From: a virus
Direction: 5' to 3' (one strand)
IMG/VR virus record: IMGVR_UViG_3300031857_001447
Location: 1 to 23,224 of that record
DNA length: 23,224 nucleotides
Shown: positions 4,337 through 19,260 of the stretch, in pieces
Layout: the number at the start of each line of letters is the position of its first letter
Numbering within the stretch: the stretch's first letter is position 1
The notes under the pieces: model-generated
Databases searched by the model: none
Told to the model about the DNA's origin: nothing
Seen by the model: the letters and a program-made list of their open reading frames with translations, nothing else
Position numbers and translations under genes: made by a program

Positions 4337-4590
4337 AATATATTATACTACTCGTATCATTAATGATTTCGGGATGTGCTAGTAAAGATTATTCTGTGTA
4401 TGTGGAAGCACAGAAAGCCCTATCCCGGGATATAACTGTTACAGAAACCACTCGTATGCTAGCCATATCGGAAATGTTAAAAAGTCCCGATCCTAGTGTT
4501 AGACAGAACGGGACTTTATTACTACAGCAGTTACAACAGTCCAGACAGCTTATTGTAATTGAGTTACCTAAGAATATATTTGGATTTTAA
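4333..4590 (+). CDS. Second small lipoprotein, unknown function
   Basis: An 85-residue lipoprotein. The signal sequence MKYIILLVSLMISGC gives a lipobox Ile-Ser-Gly before Cys15, followed by ASKDYSVYVEAQKAL. The mature region is helical and Gln/Leu-rich (LLLQQLQQSRQL), ending in a hydrophobic IELPKNIFGF. It overlaps the preceding lipoprotein by ATGA, so the three membrane-associated genes form one translational unit. It could be a second o-spanin, a lysis regulator or a superinfection factor, and the sequence does not decide. Its last 4 nt overlap the end of the opposite-strand nuclease gene. Confidence 0.75.
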   Translation: MKYIILLVSLMISGCASKDYSVYVEAQKALSRDITVTETTRMLAISEMLKSPDPSVRQNGTLLLQQLQQSRQLIVIELPKNIFGF

Positions 4591-5027
4591 TTACACCAAG
4601 TCGTTTTGGCTTCACCGTAGTACTCACGTGCAAAACCCTGCTGGATAAGCATCCCTCTTAAACTTTTGCCGTCTAAAATAACGTCACCCAAAACACGTCC
4701 GCCGTACTTATCCCAGTCCATTAGTATAATTTGTTTCTTTTGTGCATTAGCAATTTGTTGTTTTGTGAATGCACTAGCAGCCTCTCCACGCTGTGCTTCA
4801 CTTGGACATTGTGCTCTATGACCCTTCTCAGGAGTATCAACACCAAATACACGAATACTTAGTTCGGGTTTTAGTGGTGCCGGCAAGAACGGTGCTTGAA
4901 ATGCAATTGTGTCGCCATCGATAACTCTAGTAATCAATGCATCATATGTCACCCCTGCTTTTTGTTTTTGAGCAAACGCAGTAGTTGCCAAAGTAGATAA
5001 TAGTAGTATACATAGTATCTTGTTCAT
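4587..5027 (-). CDS. Exported thermonuclease-like (SNase family) protein
   Basis: A 146-residue protein, the only gene on the - strand. It begins with a cleavable-looking signal peptide (MNKILCILLLSTLATTAFA, cut after Ala19). The mature part has staphylococcal-nuclease landmarks: VIDGDT at 35-40 (metal ligand Asp39), R59-VFG-V-D64-TPE67 matching the catalytic Arg, Asp and Glu set, and DKYGGR at 106-111 supplying the second Arg. The DKYGGR motif has one extra Gly relative to the common DKYGR. Cys74 and Cys145 could form a disulfide in the periplasm. The likely activity is Ca-dependent cleavage of DNA or RNA outside the cytoplasm. A ribosome binding site AAGGAA lies 5 nt before the start. It is convergent with the lipoprotein gene and divergent from the structural gene at 5117. 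Confidence 0.85.
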   Translation of the reverse strand: MNKILCILLLSTLATTAFAQKQKAGVTYDALITRVIDGDTIAFQAPFLPAPLKPELSIRVFGVDTPEKGHRAQCPSEAQRGEAASAFTKQQIANAQKKQIILMDWDKYGGRVLGDVILDGKSLRGMLIQQGFAREYYGEAKTTWCN

Positions 5028-5087: not shown

Positions 5088-5095
5088 GATAAATA
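5088..5095 (+). promoter_or_regulatory. Late-like promoter box of the tail-fibre-like gene
   Basis: GATAAATA closely resembles the T4 late element TATAAATA. It ends 21 nt before ATG 5117, with a weak CGGAA ribosome binding site between. It drives a structural gene, as expected for a late promoter. Confidence 0.6.
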
Positions 5096-5116: not shown

Positions 5117-5956
5117 ATGGCAACATCTCCAGGTATTATAGAAGTTATAGATATTGGTCAATTACCCAACGACGGTACAGGTGATCCGTTACGTGTTGCG
5201 TTTGACAAAATTAACAACAACTTTGCTAGTATCCCTTTATTAAATCAAGGTGGACCAAACGGGGCATTGCAATTTAATAATGCTGGCTTTAGCGGTGGTA
5301 TCGCTAATTTAGTTTTGGACGTACCAAACAACAAAGTTAATATTGGTGCCAACATTATCCCGATCGCAACTAATACAGTTCAGATTGGTAGTAGCCCACT
5401 AAGAATTGCTAATGTTTGGTTGAGTAAGAATGATTCGCTACATATTGGTAACGTTGGTATAAGTGAAAACTTTGATGTATTGAGTTTTTATCAAAATGCT
5501 AATCGTTTTATTGCGGCAGACTTGCAAGTTGGTAACATATATGCTACTGGTGACTTGATTGCTATCGGTAACGTCACATCTACCGGTAATATCGCTGTTA
5601 ACGGTGGTATCGGACTAAATGGTGGCATCACTATCAATTCAGCTAACGTAATAACAACCAATAATACAGCGAATCAAGTTATATATGAGTTACCTCAAAA
5701 CACTTGTACTACTGTTCGTTTTCAAGTTACTTCAAAGGTACTAGATAATAATGATGCACAGACAGCTACAATTACTGTAACTAAACGTAATGATGGTATC
5801 AGAGCCGAACATAGTATATACGGCACGGTATTTACAGGTAATGCAGTTACTAGATATAATGTTGACGTTGCATTTGGAAATATTAGGCTAATGGTATCAC
5901 CTCTTTTAAACGCTAATGTTATGCATTTATTTTCTTACCAAGCAGATAGAGAATAA
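5117..5956 (+). CDS. Virion structural protein, tail-fibre-like
   Basis: A 279-residue protein rich in N, G, I, V and T, with very few charged residues. Near its N-terminus (residues about 12-37) is DIGQLPNDGTGDPLRVAFDK followed by INNNF. This segment recurs in phage fibre and baseplate-associated proteins. The middle (about 70-180) has short repeating turns such as VGNIYATGDLIAIGNV and STGNIAVNGGIGLNGG, typical of beta-solenoid or triple-helical fibre shafts. The last 100 residues form a separate beta-rich domain (TVRFQVTSKV to LFSYQADRE) that could be a tip or attachment domain. No enzyme motif is visible. Its exact place in the virion cannot be told. It is preceded by a late-like promoter box, and its TAA overlaps the next ATG (TAATG). 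Confidence 0.7.
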   Translation: MATSPGIIEVIDIGQLPNDGTGDPLRVAFDKINNNFASIPLLNQGGPNGALQFNNAGFSGGIANLVLDVPNNKVNIGANIIPIATNTVQIGSSPLRIANVWLSKNDSLHIGNVGISENFDVLSFYQNANRFIAADLQVGNIYATGDLIAIGNVTSTGNIAVNGGIGLNGGITINSANVITTNNTANQVIYELPQNTCTTVRFQVTSKVLDNNDAQTATITVTKRNDGIRAEHSIYGTVFTGNAVTRYNVDVAFGNIRLMVSPLLNANVMHLFSYQADRE

Positions 5957-6345
5957 TGAGAGCACACGAATTTATATCAGAGTCGAGTGAAAAAAAAATC
6001 TCGAAAAGACAATCCCAGTCATCAGCTGGGTTGAATACTTACGGTGACAGTGAGCGTATAAGCGGTGATTATACTGCATATCGTTTGGGTATGGCTGTAG
6101 CAGGCGCGAACGGAAAAGACCCACTCGTTATGCCAGCAAAAAGTTGGATAGGTAAACGTAAATCAACTCACCCTTATACCAAAGAAGAACAAGCTATGCT
6201 AAAACAAGCATATAAAGCAGTGGGTGCAGAGTACACTGATTTGAATCATGGCGACATGAAAAGTAAAGAATTAGATGATACTCATACAACTAGTCCAGTT
6301 CTAGGTTTTGCTGGCTACGGTGAAAAAACTAAAAAGAAAAAATAA
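5956..6345 (+). CDS. Small basic protein with T4 internal-protein-like capsid-targeting leader
   Basis: A 129-residue, Lys-rich protein. It begins MRAHEFISESSEKK. T4 internal head proteins (IPI to IPIII) begin with a short leader of the form MKTYQEFIxEA, which targets them into the prohead and is cut by the gp21 protease after (L/I)-x-E. Here Ile7-Ser8-Glu9 fits that cleavage rule. After removal the protein would be about 120 residues and basic (it ends GEKTKKKK), as expected for a protein packed with DNA and ejected into the host. It is coupled to the structural gene by TAATG. The body (residues 45-120) is not recognised. The internal-protein role is inferred from the leader only. Confidence 0.6.
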   Translation: MRAHEFISESSEKKISKRQSQSSAGLNTYGDSERISGDYTAYRLGMAVAGANGKDPLVMPAKSWIGKRKSTHPYTKEEQAMLKQAYKAVGAEYTDLNHGDMKSKELDDTHTTSPVLGFAGYGEKTKKKK

Positions 6346-7157: not shown

Positions 7158-7721
7158 ATGATTATTTATTCGAAAACAACTTTGCCATCAGGATATTACG
7201 TTTATGCGTATGTACGTTCTGATGGTAAACCTTATTACATTGGTAAGGGAATCGGTTCTAGGGCTTGGAGTCATAGGAAACGTGAGCGCATTCACCAACC
7301 TACCGATCACTCTCGAATCATAATATGTGAATCGAATCTTTCAGAAATAGGCGCATTGGCATTAGAAAGAAAACTAATCCGTATTTGGGGAAGAAAAGAC
7401 CTGGGTGAGGGTATTCTACAAAATAGGTCCGATGGCGGAGAAGGAGTAAGTTCAGGAGAACGTCATCCTAATTATGGCAAAAAATTTACTAATACTGTTA
7501 GAAATAAGGGGAACAGTTCTATTGCTGGCTCAATAGCTAAAAGAGGGGAAAGTAACCCCATGTTTAATAAAAAACACAAAGATAGTACAAAAAAGATACT
7601 AAGTGACATACACATGGGTAAGGTTTGGAAAAAAGAAATTTGCAAACATTGTGGTAAAATAGTTTCTATTGGTAATTTCAAACGTTGGCATGATGTCAAT
7701 TGTAAATTTAAAACTAAATAA
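7158..7721 (+). CDS. GIY-YIG homing endonuclease, free-standing (Seg-like)
   Basis: A 187-residue DNA endonuclease. The N-terminal GIY-YIG nuclease domain (about 12-92) shows YVYAYVR, then PYYIGKG at 25-31, conserved Arg35, Glu70 in ALALERKLI, and Asn89 before the RSDGGEG end motif. These match the catalytic set of I-TevI. The middle holds two NUMOD3-like DNA-binding segments: [11 protein letters not shown] at 100-110 and [12 protein letters not shown] at 129-140. The C-terminus has a zinc-finger pattern, Cys162-x2-Cys165-x12-His178-x3-Cys182. Both flanking genes are intact, so this is a free-standing element rather than intron-encoded. It probably spreads by cutting phages that lack it. A strong GAGGAG ribosome binding site sets the start. 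Confidence 0.93.
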
Positions 7722-8034: not shown

Positions 8035-9582
8035 ATGGCAAACACACCCACCCTCGTCAAAAATCCTTACGTCAAAACAAAATTCAAAGACGAAACGGAA
8101 CTGACTGACTTTATCAAATGCTGTGATCCGGAAACAGGTTATCTATACTTTATGGATAACTTCTTTATGATTCAACACCCGACTAAGGGAAGCATGGTCT
8201 ATCATCCTTGGGAATATCAAAAACGATTAATCAACACCTATCATAACTATCGTTATTCAATCAGCTTGATGCCTCGACAGTCAGGTAAATCTACATCGGC
8301 AGCAGGTTATTTGTTATGGTATGCAATGTTTGTACCAGACAGCACGATTCTTATTGCGGCGCACAAATATACAGGTGCTCAGGAGATTATGCAACGTATA
8401 CGTTATGCATATGAAAACTGCCCCGATCATATTAAAGCAGGTGTAACAACATATAACAAAGGCTCACTAGACTTTGAGAACGGATCTCGTATTGTAAGTG
8501 CAACAACTACTGAAAATACAGGTCGTGGTATGTCTATTACATTGTTGTATCTGGATGAGTTTGCATTCGTTCGACCAAGTATCGCTAAAGAATTCTGGAC
8601 AGCTATCACCCCTACATTGTCAACTGGTGGTAAAGCTATTATCACAAGCACACCAAACAGTGATGAGGATCAGTTTGCGTTCATCTGGAAGGGTGCTAAT
8701 AAAACTGAAGATGCTTATGGTAACAAAACTGAAGTTGGAGTAAACGGATTCAGAGCATACCGAGCTTACTATACTGAACAGCCAGGGCGTGACGACCAGT
8801 GGGCAAATGAAATGAGAGCACAATTAGGTGATGATCGTTTCCGTCGAGAGATTGGTTGTGAGTTCATTATTGCTGATGAAACACTTATTAACCCTAGCAC
8901 ATTAATTGACATGGAAGGAACTGAACCTACTTTCCGTCAAGGACAGATACGATGGTACAAGACACCTAAAAAAGGTAACATATATGCAATTGGTTTAGAT
9001 CCCAGTTTAGGTACAGGTGGAGATCCATCAGCTATTCAGATTTTTGAAGCTAATACTACTACCCAAGTAGGTGAATGGAAACACAATAAAACTGACATTC
9101 CTACTCAAGTAAAATTGTTAGTTCAAATAGCCAAATACATTGTTGAGTGTACAGGAGAACCTAATAACATCTACTATTCAGTAGAGACAAACTCAATAGG
9201 TGAAGCGGCATTAGTTTCTATTGCTGAGTTTGGTGAGTCTAACATACCCGGAACGTTCATGGGAGAGAACGGGAAGAAGCGCAAAGGATTCAACACCACT
9301 AACAAGAGTAAATTAGCGGCTTGTGCTAAGTTCAAAACACTAGTTGAGTCTAAGAAAATGACTATAAATAGTCATAGTCTTATAACTGAATTAAAAAGTT
9401 TTATTGCAGCCGGTGGCAGTTTTCAAGCTAAGATTGGTGACACTGATGACTTGGTTATGGCTAGTCTATTAATAGTGCGTATTTTACAGCAGTTAAGTGA
9501 ATACCATTCTAATTTAGATTCATATATGCGTGACCATGAAGAATTTATAGCTCCATTACCCTTCTTTGCGGTAATGGGTTAA
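8035..9582 (+). CDS. 17: Terminase large subunit (T4 gp17 family)
   Basis: A 515-residue DNA packaging motor and headful nuclease that docks on the portal. The N-terminal ATPase has MPRQSGKST (Walker A, 79-87, Lys85), LLYLDE (Walker B 170-175, catalytic Glu175) and the coupling motif TSTPNS (204-209). The C-terminal RNase H-fold nuclease has AIGLDPSLGTGGDPSA with Asp322, YSVETN with Glu384, and GDTDDLVMA with Asp471/Asp472. T4 gp17 has 610 residues, so this copy is shorter but has every catalytic element. It follows the small gene at 7725 and precedes an 859-residue unknown, whereas T4 has the tail sheath gene there. Confidence 0.97.
   Translation: MANTPTLVKNPYVKTKFKDETELTDFIKCCDPETGYLYFMDNFFMIQHPTKGSMVYHPWEYQKRLINTYHNYRYSISLMPRQSGKSTSAAGYLLWYAMFVPDSTILIAAHKYTGAQEIMQRIRYAYENCPDHIKAGVTTYNKGSLDFENGSRIVSATTTENTGRGMSITLLYLDEFAFVRPSIAKEFWTAITPTLSTGGKAIITSTPNSDEDQFAFIWKGANKTEDAYGNKTEVGVNGFRAYRAYYTEQPGRDDQWANEMRAQLGDDRFRREIGCEFIIADETLINPSTLIDMEGTEPTFRQGQIRWYKTPKKGNIYAIGLDPSLGTGGDPSAIQIFEANTTTQVGEWKHNKTDIPTQVKLLVQIAKYIVECTGEPNNIYYSVETNSIGEAALVSIAEFGESNIPGTFMGENGKKRKGFNTTNKSKLAACAKFKTLVESKKMTINSHSLITELKSFIAAGGSFQAKIGDTDDLVMASLLIVRILQQLSEYHSNLDSYMRDHEEFIAPLPFFAVMG
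9358..9375 (+). repeat. Perfect 18-bp dyad with TATAAATA core inside the terminase gene
   Basis: ATGACTAT-AA-ATAGTCAT has 8-bp arms, and the centre contains TATAAATA, an exact T4 late promoter element. It lies 233 nt before the next gene and may be an internal late promoter or a chance palindrome. Confidence 0.5.
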
Positions 9583-9607: not shown

Positions 9608-12187
9608 ATGTCAAAAAAACAAGAAGCCCTAAGGGCAGAATTACACAAAGTACTTAACAGGGGCGGTCGCTCTATTATTAATAGAGCCAGTGACAGCAAA
9701 GTAGTTCCTGTACCAGAAAAAGCAGATGTATTTGAATTTGACTTTACTAAAGAAGGTAAGACCTATGGTAAAGTATTTGTATCTATCGATGGATTACGTC
9801 AATTAATAGTATATTTTGATGACGCCGTTTCCGGTAGCCCTAAAAACGGATCAACTGATAGCGAGTCATGGGAACAACTAATTAAGACATTAAAGAGATT
9901 TTCTATGATGAAACAACTTAGTTTTAAACTAGATAATATAGATAATTTGGAAAATGATATGGCAAAAAGAGAACACACTAAACGTGAAGAACAGATGTAT
10001 GAAGGTTATCATGCTCAAGGTAAAAAAGCTAGCTATAGCGACAATGTACCTACAACTAAGATAATCATTAAACATAAAAGAGAAATGCAAGAGGGTGAGC
10101 AACGTTTCCGCCAGATTGATAAAATCTTTATTGAAAACGCAATTGGTGAAAGAATGTTAGCCCCTACTGACAGACCAGGCTTAGCACGTGTATTTGCAAG
10201 GCACGTGGCTGAAGGTGGTAAAGCTAACGATGACCGTTGGAATCATATTTCTAGTTTATGTGAAGAATATAAACAGATGGCAGGATTTGTTCGTGCTACA
10301 CGTAGCGGACAATTCAATGAATCTGCACAGCAGTTAGTCAGTGAAGGTATTAATCACTATCAAAAACTACGTGAGTGTTTGGGTAAAATGTCAGGTCAAC
10401 GTGGATACAATGCGTACTTTGAAAGCTATACACCTGCATTGATGGAAGATGAAGAACAAGTAGACCTAAGTGAAATGTTTATGTCTAGTAGTTTGGATCC
10501 ACGTATCGAAAGCGTAATGCCAATACTACGCAAGTTGAGTAAAAATATCACAGAAACTTCTGATATGGCGGAGACTATTGCATTAGAAGCATGGGCAGAT
10601 GATATTATTGGTACGCATAAAGGTGGAACTACCACACATAAAGATGGTGTAACTAGACACAAAGCTGGCCCTGGAGTATACGGTGGCAGTGAACCTGAAG
10701 AAGATCCTGACACTGAGTTAGATAAAAATTATATTAACAAAACTGAAAAAGAAATTGGTGTCAAGTGGCCTAGAGAAAAGAAATTTCAGGGTGGTATCAA
10801 AGTAGATGAAGTTGAATCATCTACAAGTGGCAAGCCTAGTAGACAAGATGTTGCAAAAAAGATGCATGGTATTCTAAGTAAGAGTGTCAATAAGAGTAAT
10901 ATGGCAAGAGTGAAAACTCAACAAGCAGTTGGAAGCCGTGTTGCTGATATTGGCGCAGGTGGCAAAGAGTATAATGTTAAAACTGATGCGGCATGGGATA
11001 AACAACAAGGCGTGACGGAAGATTCATTTGACAATCCTGTATCCAATGCTATTACACGTAGAATCTTAATGCAACGTTCAGATTTGTTAGCCAAATACGG
11101 TCCAGAAAAAGTAACAGCCGCTATTGACGATGTAGCTGACTTTGTAGGTGATACAGATGAAATTGGCAGCAGTGATGTTAGTGGTTGGGTCAAACAAGTT
11201 GAAAAATCATTAGCTGGCATGGGCGAAAGCGAAACAAACGAAGGTGTATTAGATGCTGTGAGAAATAAAATGCAATCTGGTTCTATGCTAGACCGTGTTC
11301 GCTCTGGTGCATATAAGAAACCGGCAGCTCCAGTTGCACAGGCAGCACCAACTGCACCTGCAGCCGCACCTCCCCCGGGCTACGATACAGAGACAGGTAA
11401 ACCATTGCCTCCCGAAGCTAGATTTGATCCAAACACTGGCAAACCACTTCCAGGATTATCTCCGGCAGCACCGGTTGCAACTCGTCCACCTTTGCCATCA
11501 GCACAAGCGGCGGCAACGCCTCGTCCACCTGCTACAGCAACACCAACTGCTCCTCAACCAGCAATGGGCCCGACTGAGTTACCACCTGATTGGAAATTTG
11601 GTCAAGCTATCCCTAGGTCAGTATGGAAAGCGGGTGATGATCCTAACAAGAATCCAAACAACCCTATCATTGTGACAATGGTTAAAACTAGAGATGCATT
11701 AGTTAAACAAGGTCGAGGTAACCCAGACGAAATACAACATAGCATTACTAGAGCAAATAGAGGTCAAGAATTCAACACGTATGGTATGACCGGGTACGTA
11801 GATGAAAGTAAAAACGTATTAGAAGGACTTAGCAGTAACCAACGTTCACGATTGGATGATTTAATTAGTCAATATAGAGATGCTACTGATCCAATGGGTT
11901 ATGATGATGATGCACCTGATCCAGATGAAGTAATCAATCAAATACGACAAGAGTTTGGTGATAAGATTGCTGATACGTTAGAACAAGGTCCTAGCTCGCA
12001 CTTCACAAGAAATAATCATAGCATAGGTAATGACCCATTAGATTCGTATGGTTCTACTAACCGAATTACAAAGTTAGGTAAAGTCAATAAACAAGATATA
12101 TCGGCTCTTAAAAATAGAATTAAACAAAGAGATGTAACAGAAGGTCAAAAAGACCTAGACGCTATCAAACGTTTATTGGGTAAATAA
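9608..12187 (+). CDS. Large modular phage protein, unknown function, possibly virion-associated
   Basis: An 859-residue protein. Residues 1-335 form a mostly alpha/beta and helical region (for example RPGLARVFARHVAEGG at 189-204). About 335-465 is hydrophilic and probably disordered. About 473-535 is a compact helical module starting DSFDNPVSNAITRRILMQR. About 570-657 is a Pro/Ala-rich linker with two copies of [YF]D-x-x-TGKPLP (592-601 and 606-615). About 658-730 is a further small domain, and 738-859 a helical C-terminus. Segments of the form V-[TD]-E-[DGS] separate modules, notably QGVTED at 467-472 and DVTEGQ at 842-847. It follows the terminase, so a packaged or head/tail-associated protein is possible. 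No catalytic motif or confident family was recognised. Confidence 0.8.
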   Translation: MSKKQEALRAELHKVLNRGGRSIINRASDSKVVPVPEKADVFEFDFTKEGKTYGKVFVSIDGLRQLIVYFDDAVSGSPKNGSTDSESWEQLIKTLKRFSMMKQLSFKLDNIDNLENDMAKREHTKREEQMYEGYHAQGKKASYSDNVPTTKIIIKHKREMQEGEQRFRQIDKIFIENAIGERMLAPTDRPGLARVFARHVAEGGKANDDRWNHISSLCEEYKQMAGFVRATRSGQFNESAQQLVSEGINHYQKLRECLGKMSGQRGYNAYFESYTPALMEDEEQVDLSEMFMSSSLDPRIESVMPILRKLSKNITETSDMAETIALEAWADDIIGTHKGGTTTHKDGVTRHKAGPGVYGGSEPEEDPDTELDKNYINKTEKEIGVKWPREKKFQGGIKVDEVESSTSGKPSRQDVAKKMHGILSKSVNKSNMARVKTQQAVGSRVADIGAGGKEYNVKTDAAWDKQQGVTEDSFDNPVSNAITRRILMQRSDLLAKYGPEKVTAAIDDVADFVGDTDEIGSSDVSGWVKQVEKSLAGMGESETNEGVLDAVRNKMQSGSMLDRVRSGAYKKPAAPVAQAAPTAPAAAPPPGYDTETGKPLPPEARFDPNTGKPLPGLSPAAPVATRPPLPSAQAAATPRPPATATPTAPQPAMGPTELPPDWKFGQAIPRSVWKAGDDPNKNPNNPIIVTMVKTRDALVKQGRGNPDEIQHSITRANRGQEFNTYGMTGYVDESKNVLEGLSSNQRSRLDDLISQYRDATDPMGYDDDAPDPDEVINQIRQEFGDKIADTLEQGPSSHFTRNNHSIGNDPLDSYGSTNRITKLGKVNKQDISALKNRIKQRDVTEGQKDLDAIKRLLGK

Positions 12188-18177: not shown

Positions 18178-19260
18178 ATGATGACAAAAAAGCCTCATAC
18201 TAAAGAACAATTGGTAGATTATCTATCAAAGTATATAAGTCTGGGCACTTACGATAAAAAGTTTGTGAATAACTTATTGCAACTTAATATTGCCGCAGGT
18301 AAATCAGTTACTACAAACCAATCTGCATTGTTAGACAAGATTGTTTTACGATATCAACGTCAATTGTCAAAGGCCGAATTAAGCAGTATTGAATTGGTTA
18401 GGTTATCTTGGACTGTTCCTCCTATTGAAAGCTCACCTATATATACTGAGGCTCATATCTCTATAATGGATGACACCACTATAATTATTCATAGCCCTTA
18501 TAAAAAGGATTTTGTAAAAGAACTAAAGAACCTTGAATATATGAATTGGGACCGAGAAAACAAAATGTGGTCTGCGGTAGCATCAGAACAAACATTGAAA
18601 TCAATTTTGGAAATAGTCACTGCGTACTATGACAAAGTAAACTATTGCCCTGTCGTTCAACAGGTAATCGATACAGTAAAAGAACATAAGGACATTCGAT
18701 ATTGGAATCCTACTCTTGCAAGGATTAACGGTAACCTATATGTCATGGCTGCAAATCCATCATTGATGGCAGCAATAGAACATCTACCATTGAACACGGA
18801 ATATCATACTCTTGCTAGACTAAGTAGAATGGGAATTAGAATCGATCCCGCACTAATAAGTGATATACATGACGAGTTAGGCGGCACCGATGAAGTTATG
18901 AATAAACTTATTTTTGCATTAGACCCGCAACCGAAAATTGAAATTACTGACACGAATAGACTGATAGAGTATTTGCAAAATATTAAAGCAGACATGGTTT
19001 TGTTAGCAGAATGGTTCGGCACAAACAAGAGTATTGTTATGGAATTAGCTAATTTATTGAAAGCTAACAACATTACACATAGGGTTTTAAAAAGTAAAGC
19101 GGGTAACCTATCAAAAGATAAGAGTAACATTAACTTGCGAAAATGTGAGATGCCAGTTAAAATTAACATGAGCACCTTTACCGCGCACAGTTCTACTAAA
19201 CATGTTGCAAAAACAATACAGATAGTAAACAGTAGTGGGATTTATATAGAATACAAATGA
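18178..19260 (+). CDS. HARP-like domain protein coupled to UvsW
   Basis: A 360-residue protein. Residues 93-147 (HISIMDDTTIIIHSPYKKD, then LKNLEYMNWDRENKMWSAV) fit the HARP-type pattern: a hydrophobic strand, a PY-x-x-x-F helix, and W-D-x-x-N/T-x-x-W followed by a short helix. In SMARCAL1-type proteins this domain precedes a SNF2 helicase and supports annealing and fork remodelling. Here the helicase UvsW is the next gene, overlapping by ATGA. The C-terminal 110 residues look alpha/beta but have no clear motif. Start choice is uncertain: ATGs at 18178 and 18181 are in frame. A TATAAT box at 18170-18175 would give a leaderless message. No Shine-Dalgarno is visible. Confidence 0.7.
   Translation: MMTKKPHTKEQLVDYLSKYISLGTYDKKFVNNLLQLNIAAGKSVTTNQSALLDKIVLRYQRQLSKAELSSIELVRLSWTVPPIESSPIYTEAHISIMDDTTIIIHSPYKKDFVKELKNLEYMNWDRENKMWSAVASEQTLKSILEIVTAYYDKVNYCPVVQQVIDTVKEHKDIRYWNPTLARINGNLYVMAANPSLMAAIEHLPLNTEYHTLARLSRMGIRIDPALISDIHDELGGTDEVMNKLIFALDPQPKIEITDTNRLIEYLQNIKADMVLLAEWFGTNKSIVMELANLLKANNITHRVLKSKAGNLSKDKSNINLRKCEMPVKINMSTFTAHSSTKHVAKTIQIVNSSGIYIEYK

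Follow-up and report, generated by a model that had tools for sequence, protein, structure and literature searches.

The window analysed here is the whole of IMG/VR record IMGVR_UViG_3300031857_001447 (23,224 bases) and is a fragment of a jumbo phage of the T4 superfamily. It is placed among T4-like jumbo phages by its terminase large subunit (TerL, Table 1), which shares at most 51% identity with those of cultured phages (PA5oct, Phosso); no isolate of the window's lineage was found in INPHARED. TerL, gp32, UvsX and UvsW of the window recur at 75–86% identity in two larger records of its lineage, G001 (367 kb) and G003 (352 kb).

The gene under study encodes a 129 aa protein with the N-terminus MRAHEFISESS, and it is a real gene under purifying selection: changes relative to four relatives fall mostly in third codon positions (e.g., 8/2/38 against locus L003). 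The product contains 17 Lys and 5 Arg and has a pI of 9.42, or 9.52 after the predicted cut, where T4 IPII and IPIII computed likewise give 9.33 and 9.54; its description as small, basic and Lys-rich in an earlier sequence-only reading is therefore borne out. A search of IMG/VR found 87 relatives, of which 80 loci were kept. No named family was matched in Pfam, PHROG, NCBIfam or PADLOC, and neither the protein nor its body had a match in INPHARED at E <0.5, T4 included.

Table 1. Features at and near the 129-aa gene; a slash marks a predicted cut
Feature	Position	Strand	Basis or remark
ATAAATA, late-promoter-like	5089..5095	+	28 nt before upstream gene
Upstream coupled gene, weakly tail/baseplate-like	5117..5956	+	
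Predicted internal head protein precursor gene, 129 aa	5956..6345	+	ORF, relatives, codon-position change
Candidate capsid-targeting leader MRAHEFISE, 9 codons; predicted cut I-S-E/S after codon 9	5956..5982	+	
Predicted mature body, 120 aa, pI 9.52	5983..6342	+	
Terminase large subunit (T4 gp17 type)	8035..9582	+	homology

The gene belongs to a late-type operon that also holds a structural-like gene, and the two overlap through the sequence TAATG. The upstream product weakly resembles proteins of the baseplate/gp9-10 type (Pfam E 0.079; PHROG E 0.002–0.003); the earlier claim that the gene follows a structural gene and is coupled to it thus stands for the coupling, while the word structural is probable only. 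A homologue of the upstream gene precedes the leader gene in 19 of 55 loci (from the 80, with duplicates, truncated ends and fused forms left out and some near-identical copies kept), and ATAAATA lies within 60 nt of it in 16 of these 19, exactly at −28 in 12. Elsewhere among the relatives, the upstream place is taken by a tandem paralogue carrying the leader or by some other short or structural-looking gene. Seven copies of ATAAATA occur in the window where 10 are expected by chance, giving no overall excess.

Several further observations concern the lineage and the remainder of the window. In G001, 61 of 432 genes have ATAAATA in the 60 nt before them (4.2 expected), and in G003 59 of 464 (3.9 expected), an enrichment of about 15-fold just upstream of genes that points to a T4-type late promoter in the lineage. 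A short ORF on the minus strand (4587–5027) with a signal-peptide-like start, resembling a thermonuclease-type nuclease by eye, diverges from the late operon, and the ORF at 7158–7721, flanked by the leader and terminase genes, is GIY-YIG homing endonuclease-like by eye. An 859-aa protein encoded after the terminase gene (9608–12187) matches a PHROG "virion structural protein" (E 3.6e-8); it is much longer than its G001 and G003 homologues and holds several V-x-E-type sites.

The leader and its occurrence at gene starts

The sequence-only reading had compared the N-terminus, including its I-x-E site, with the leader of the T4 internal proteins (IPs), and this likeness is confirmed, the leader being one residue shorter than that of T4. 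A candidate N-terminal capsid-targeting sequence (CTS) of about ten residues ending in L/I-x-E is accordingly among the features present in the window protein. In the account given in PMC9026906, gp21 cleaves by the rule L/I-X-E, and residues 4 and 7 of T4 IPIII matter for targeting and residues 8 and 10 for processing. Anchored on the Glu, IPIII residues 7, 8 and 10 align with F6, I7 and E9 of the window leader; the T4 targeting residue Y4 aligns with A3 and differs. None of six leader spellings (MRAREFI, MRANEFI and others) occurred in the non-subscription literature searched.

The leader is strongly conserved among relatives of the protein. M1 and E9 are invariant in 37 close relatives (alignment A1), and in 97 nonredundant diverged relatives with identities down to 22% (alignment A2) they are kept in 97/97, with R2 in 96, A3 in 94, E5 in 95 and F6 in 94. 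Position 7 is hydrophobic in all 97 (I 75, V 15, L 4, M 2, F 1), positions 4 and 8 are variable, and the residue at P1′ varies widely (Q 18, S 16, A 15, G 10). As 73 of the 97 rows come from loci above L081, which were found via the leader pattern, eight tandem neighbours not chosen by their leader were counted apart, and all eight keep M, R, A, E, F and E. The body superfamily, as drawn from environmental loci by profile search, has 169 members, at least 154 of which carry the leader just upstream of the body, the others being fused, truncated or ambiguous. Its members have diversified (22–81% identical to the window protein across A2) and occur as tandem repeats; conservation of the leader contrasts with variation over most of the body, in which the conserved residues are Y39, R43, A47, A49, S103, E105 and S113.

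To count leaders across genomes, the pattern M[KR].{1,4}[EDQ][FLI][ILVMF].E was fixed before the scans of G001 and G003. Genes were predicted crudely, by longest ORF, and those having an early M[KR] were compared with internal M[KR] sites as the control. The pattern occurs at 7 of 114 gene starts and 0 of 189 internal sites in G001 and at 10 of 117 against 0 of 178 in G003 (one-sided Fisher p = 6.5e-8 for the two together); the leader match is beyond chance. Among cultured phages it is found at 3/89 gene starts of T4 (ipII, ipIII and 61.1; 0/121 internal), 4/103 of PA5oct (0/125 internal) and 2/130 in the first 400 kb of Phosso (0/189 internal), and at none in phiKZ (0/73), the first 400 kb of phage G (0/166), lambda (0/19), S-PM2 (0/51) or RB49 (0/93), the last two of which possess an S77 protease. 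Across 12 large environmental records, a strict DNA form of the leader was counted 46 times and the reversed pattern once; at least one match in each record is due to selection, since these records, like part of those searched for the protease, were partly picked for carrying the leader. Among 10 cultured phages, a single copy of the strict form was seen; for CBB and Atu_ph07, the searches covered this form and PF03420 only.

The bodies that follow the leader are largely unrelated to one another. The 110 leader proteins drawn from the IMG/VR pattern scan (80 loci, at least 120 stretches matched), G001, G003 and the window form at least 25 body clusters at E 1e-4, with 18 singletons among the matches listed; two of these clusters, L139 (which starts MSA) and G003:228818, are doubtful and probably spurious. 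One body superfamily holds 55 of the 110 clustered proteins among the matches listed, and the domains that could be named on the G001 and G003 leader proteins include Amidoligase_2, GH19, LysM with GH19, and GNAT. A leader common to proteins with unrelated bodies is therefore present, and the further proteins starting with it, for which the sequence-only reading had proposed a search, are numerous in the same genomes. With unrelated bodies behind it, the leader acts like an address that can be moved from protein to protein, in the way described for the CTS of T4 (PMC3012670), and its recurrence on so many otherwise unrelated proteins of relatives suggests a varied head cargo that would have the tag clipped off and be delivered with the DNA into the bacterium.

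Leader-tagged genes also lie in clusters, at G001:186812–190894 (in L106) and G003:194866–201220 (in L125 and L126), which are candidate cargo islands and include GH19/LysM, GNAT and amidoligase bodies. By eye, the products of G003:194866 and 195732 resemble ADP-ribosyltransferases; no useful family match came from Pfam, NCBIfam, PHROGs or PADLOC, so this identity stays a guess. For the kinase-like bodies of L188 and L193, the best matches are weak PglW-like ones (E 0.002–0.004, L193 only).

The head protease, its candidate sites and the body

The sequence-only reading had named a gp21-like protease as a check, and in the records of relatives the outcome is in its favour. PF03420 (S77, gp21-type) was detected in 12 of 35 distinct records (7/18 and 7/19, two shared), comprising every leader- or body-bearing record that reaches 150 kb (11 of 11), among them the two whose TerL, UvsX, gp32 and UvsW are 75–86% identical to those of the window, and 1 of 24 records below 150 kb. 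The 23-kb window, as a fragment, gave no match, nor did phiKZ, phage G or lambda. S-PM2 and RB49 have the S77 protease but lack the strict leader, which indicates that the protease does not imply the tag.

A matching site is present in another head protein of the lineage. In G001 and G003, the major capsid protein holds the candidate site LLAE/SSAGTTTAGNIATLN, beginning LLAE/SSAG, that of PA5oct holds FLVE/NASAGATQAGNIATIN, beginning FLVE/NASAG, and T4 gp23 reads FLTE/AEIGG at the corresponding place; the capsid cut positions in question are predicted from the L/I-X-E rule. Two of the four leader-pattern proteins of PA5oct are labelled MS-detected, against 18 of 43 features in the stretches viewed, a comparison that shows no enrichment of leader proteins. 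PA5oct gp213 (NC_071039 179881–181020, L360), with the leader MKIKEIILE, divergently adjoins gp212, a second "head maturation protease" labelled MS-detected.

In 8 of 59 loci (those of the 80 read for fusions, duplicates and truncated ends left out), the body forms the C-terminal part of a larger ORF, and the upstream partner is mostly a cytidyltransferase-like domain. All eight junctions conform to [VL]-x-E/[ST] (LNE/S, LLE/T, VAE/S, LEE/S, LIE/S), and the sequence before the junction differs among the eight; retention of the junction despite a differing flank is best explained if selection keeps the site. The two types of upstream partner point to probably at least two fusion events. These polyprotein-like ORFs (L019 8546–10357, L020, L023–L027 and L029), in which a candidate head-protease site lies between the domain and the body, begin in most of the complete cases with another leader-like form, M[KR]LRxLFE. 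As the MKLRxLFE start is not recurrent in G001 or G003, it was left out of the leader counts.

AlphaFold prediction of the body gave a mean pLDDT of 49.4 from A1 (37 sequences) and, from A2 (97 sequences), a small alpha/beta model with pLDDT 75.7 and pTM 0.57. Foldseek with the A2 model found no PDB match below E 0.66, and the best BFVD match is an uncultured-phage cytidyltransferase-like protein (E 7.5e-3, prob 0.99, 30% identity), which is probably another case of body fusion. Two other candidates were set aside: ferredoxin-like folds (VIA-align 2, Z ≤3.3, various) were uninformative, and an S-layer-like profile match to 5njl (whole E 0.0029, domain i-E 0.072) is chance-like.

Interpretation and comparison with known systems

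The 129-aa protein is probably a CTS-tagged, protease-matured internal head protein, one that would be cleaved, reside in the virion and be injected; the proposal of the sequence-only reading for an internal head protein with a T4-like capsid-targeting leader is in this way supported as far as sequence can support it. The protein would be expressed late from an operon shared with virion genes, and by analogy with T4 its nine-residue leader would direct it to the prohead core. There, the S77 gp21-type protease is predicted to cut after Glu9 (I-S-E/S), at the same type of site as in the major capsid protein, and the 120-residue basic body would stay with the DNA in the head until it is ejected into the host. 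The weakest step is what follows, in which the body may counter an early defence or help takeover, like T4 IPI and IPIII. The protein would be one item of a larger tagged cargo made up of a diversified tandem superfamily and unrelated enzyme-like proteins.

As to the function of the body, the T4 IP analogy and the diversification of the superfamily make counter-defence the first guess, a tentative one that falls somewhat short of an even chance. T4 IPI is described as inhibiting a restriction enzyme (PMC9026906), and T4 IPIII as needed on strain ECOR17, where it works without its CTS (PMC9391042). The second guess, a role in the head, is distinctly less probable; here the tagged and cleaved protein would work inside the particle as a prohead-core helper or a basic DNA-condensing protein and not as a host effector. 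This rather unlikely alternative would suit the pI of 9.5 and the abundance of Lys, and it can draw on reports that T4 head assembly is slower upon loss of IPIII (PMC9026906) and that lysines alone among the residues of internal proteins touch packaged DNA (PMC3012670), as well as on a leader-bearing 73-aa protein of PA5oct located between the portal and protease genes, in the place of T4 gp67. However, the superfamily is diversified and repeated in tandem, and other bodies behind the leader are enzyme-like, features more in keeping with cargo for delivery than with a protein of the core.

Two further explanations concern the leader itself. It might be a sorting or interaction tag for a target other than the head, such as the tail, the membrane or another assembly, its likeness to I-x-E being incidental; some tagged proteins do carry cell-wall-degrading GH19 and LysM domains that could serve the tail or lysis. 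The Glu, however, is invariant with a hydrophobic residue two positions before it, this arrangement is kept at the fusion junctions, and the capsid protein of the same genomes has a matching site, so that such a target is improbable. That the common N-terminus reflects nothing but the ancestry of one family, with no tag function, is very improbable: half of the clustered leader proteins (55/110, among the matches listed) do share one body superfamily, but at least 24 further body clusters at E 1e-4, two of them doubtful, carry the leader, and inside the superfamily it has been conserved where most of the body has not.

A broader reading, evenly balanced between right and wrong, is that one short capsid-import tag is a general cargo address in a large group of uncultured T4-like jumbo phages. 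This would take in the tagged, fast-diversifying tandem basic superfamily together with enzymes (cell-wall hydrolases, acetyltransferase, amidoligase, possibly kinase- or ADP-ribosyltransferase-like proteins) and, in some genomes instead and at the same even balance, polyproteins of a nucleotidyltransferase and the same small body split by a head-protease site, in which head maturation would double as cargo processing. Each virion would then deliver a genome-specific set of effectors at infection, and this set could be read from sequence via the tag. Few phages are known to have tagged internal proteins of the T4 type. Two of the T4 proteins work against defences of the host or make growth on a resistant host possible again (PMC9026906, PMC9391042). 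Should environmental jumbo phages use the same device, an N-terminal pattern and a protease site would predict, among hundreds of unknown genes, those acting inside the host at the very start of infection. Candidate counter-defence proteins could then be ranked, and a second capsid-targeting signal would be available with which to load proteins into large phage heads.

In comparing the window protein to known systems, the Dar proteins of P1, which are head-associated anti-restriction proteins, are similar by description only. The head ejection proteins of phiKZ and SPN3US are described as packaged with the DNA, cut after Glu by the prohead protease and ejected (PMC9026906, PMC10052503), as is proposed for the window protein; they differ in their motif (S/A-x-E or A-x-E) and their mostly long propeptides, and phiKZ has neither a PF03420 match nor a leader of the window type. 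T4 gp61.1 is a small protein with a leader of similar type (MKTFKEFIKE), however it is acidic (pI 5.46) and has another body; the gene (T4 18966–19130) is annotated as hypothetical only, despite its leader. A profile search against 268 T4 genes gave a best E of 0.041, with IPII at 0.042, using a profile that includes the leader, and no similarity of the mature part was found in it. T4 IPI, IPII and IPIII are alike in organization and share with the window protein a short N-terminal E-F-I-x-E leader and a small basic body and, with its lineage, unrelated bodies behind a common leader and a gp21-type protease in the genomes related to the window. The leader of T4 ipII and ipIII, MKTYQEFIAE/A, has 10 residues, whereas that of the window has 9 and begins MRA; unlike in T4, the tag of the window's relatives is also borne by enzyme-like proteins, and the body occurs in polyprotein-like fusions as well.
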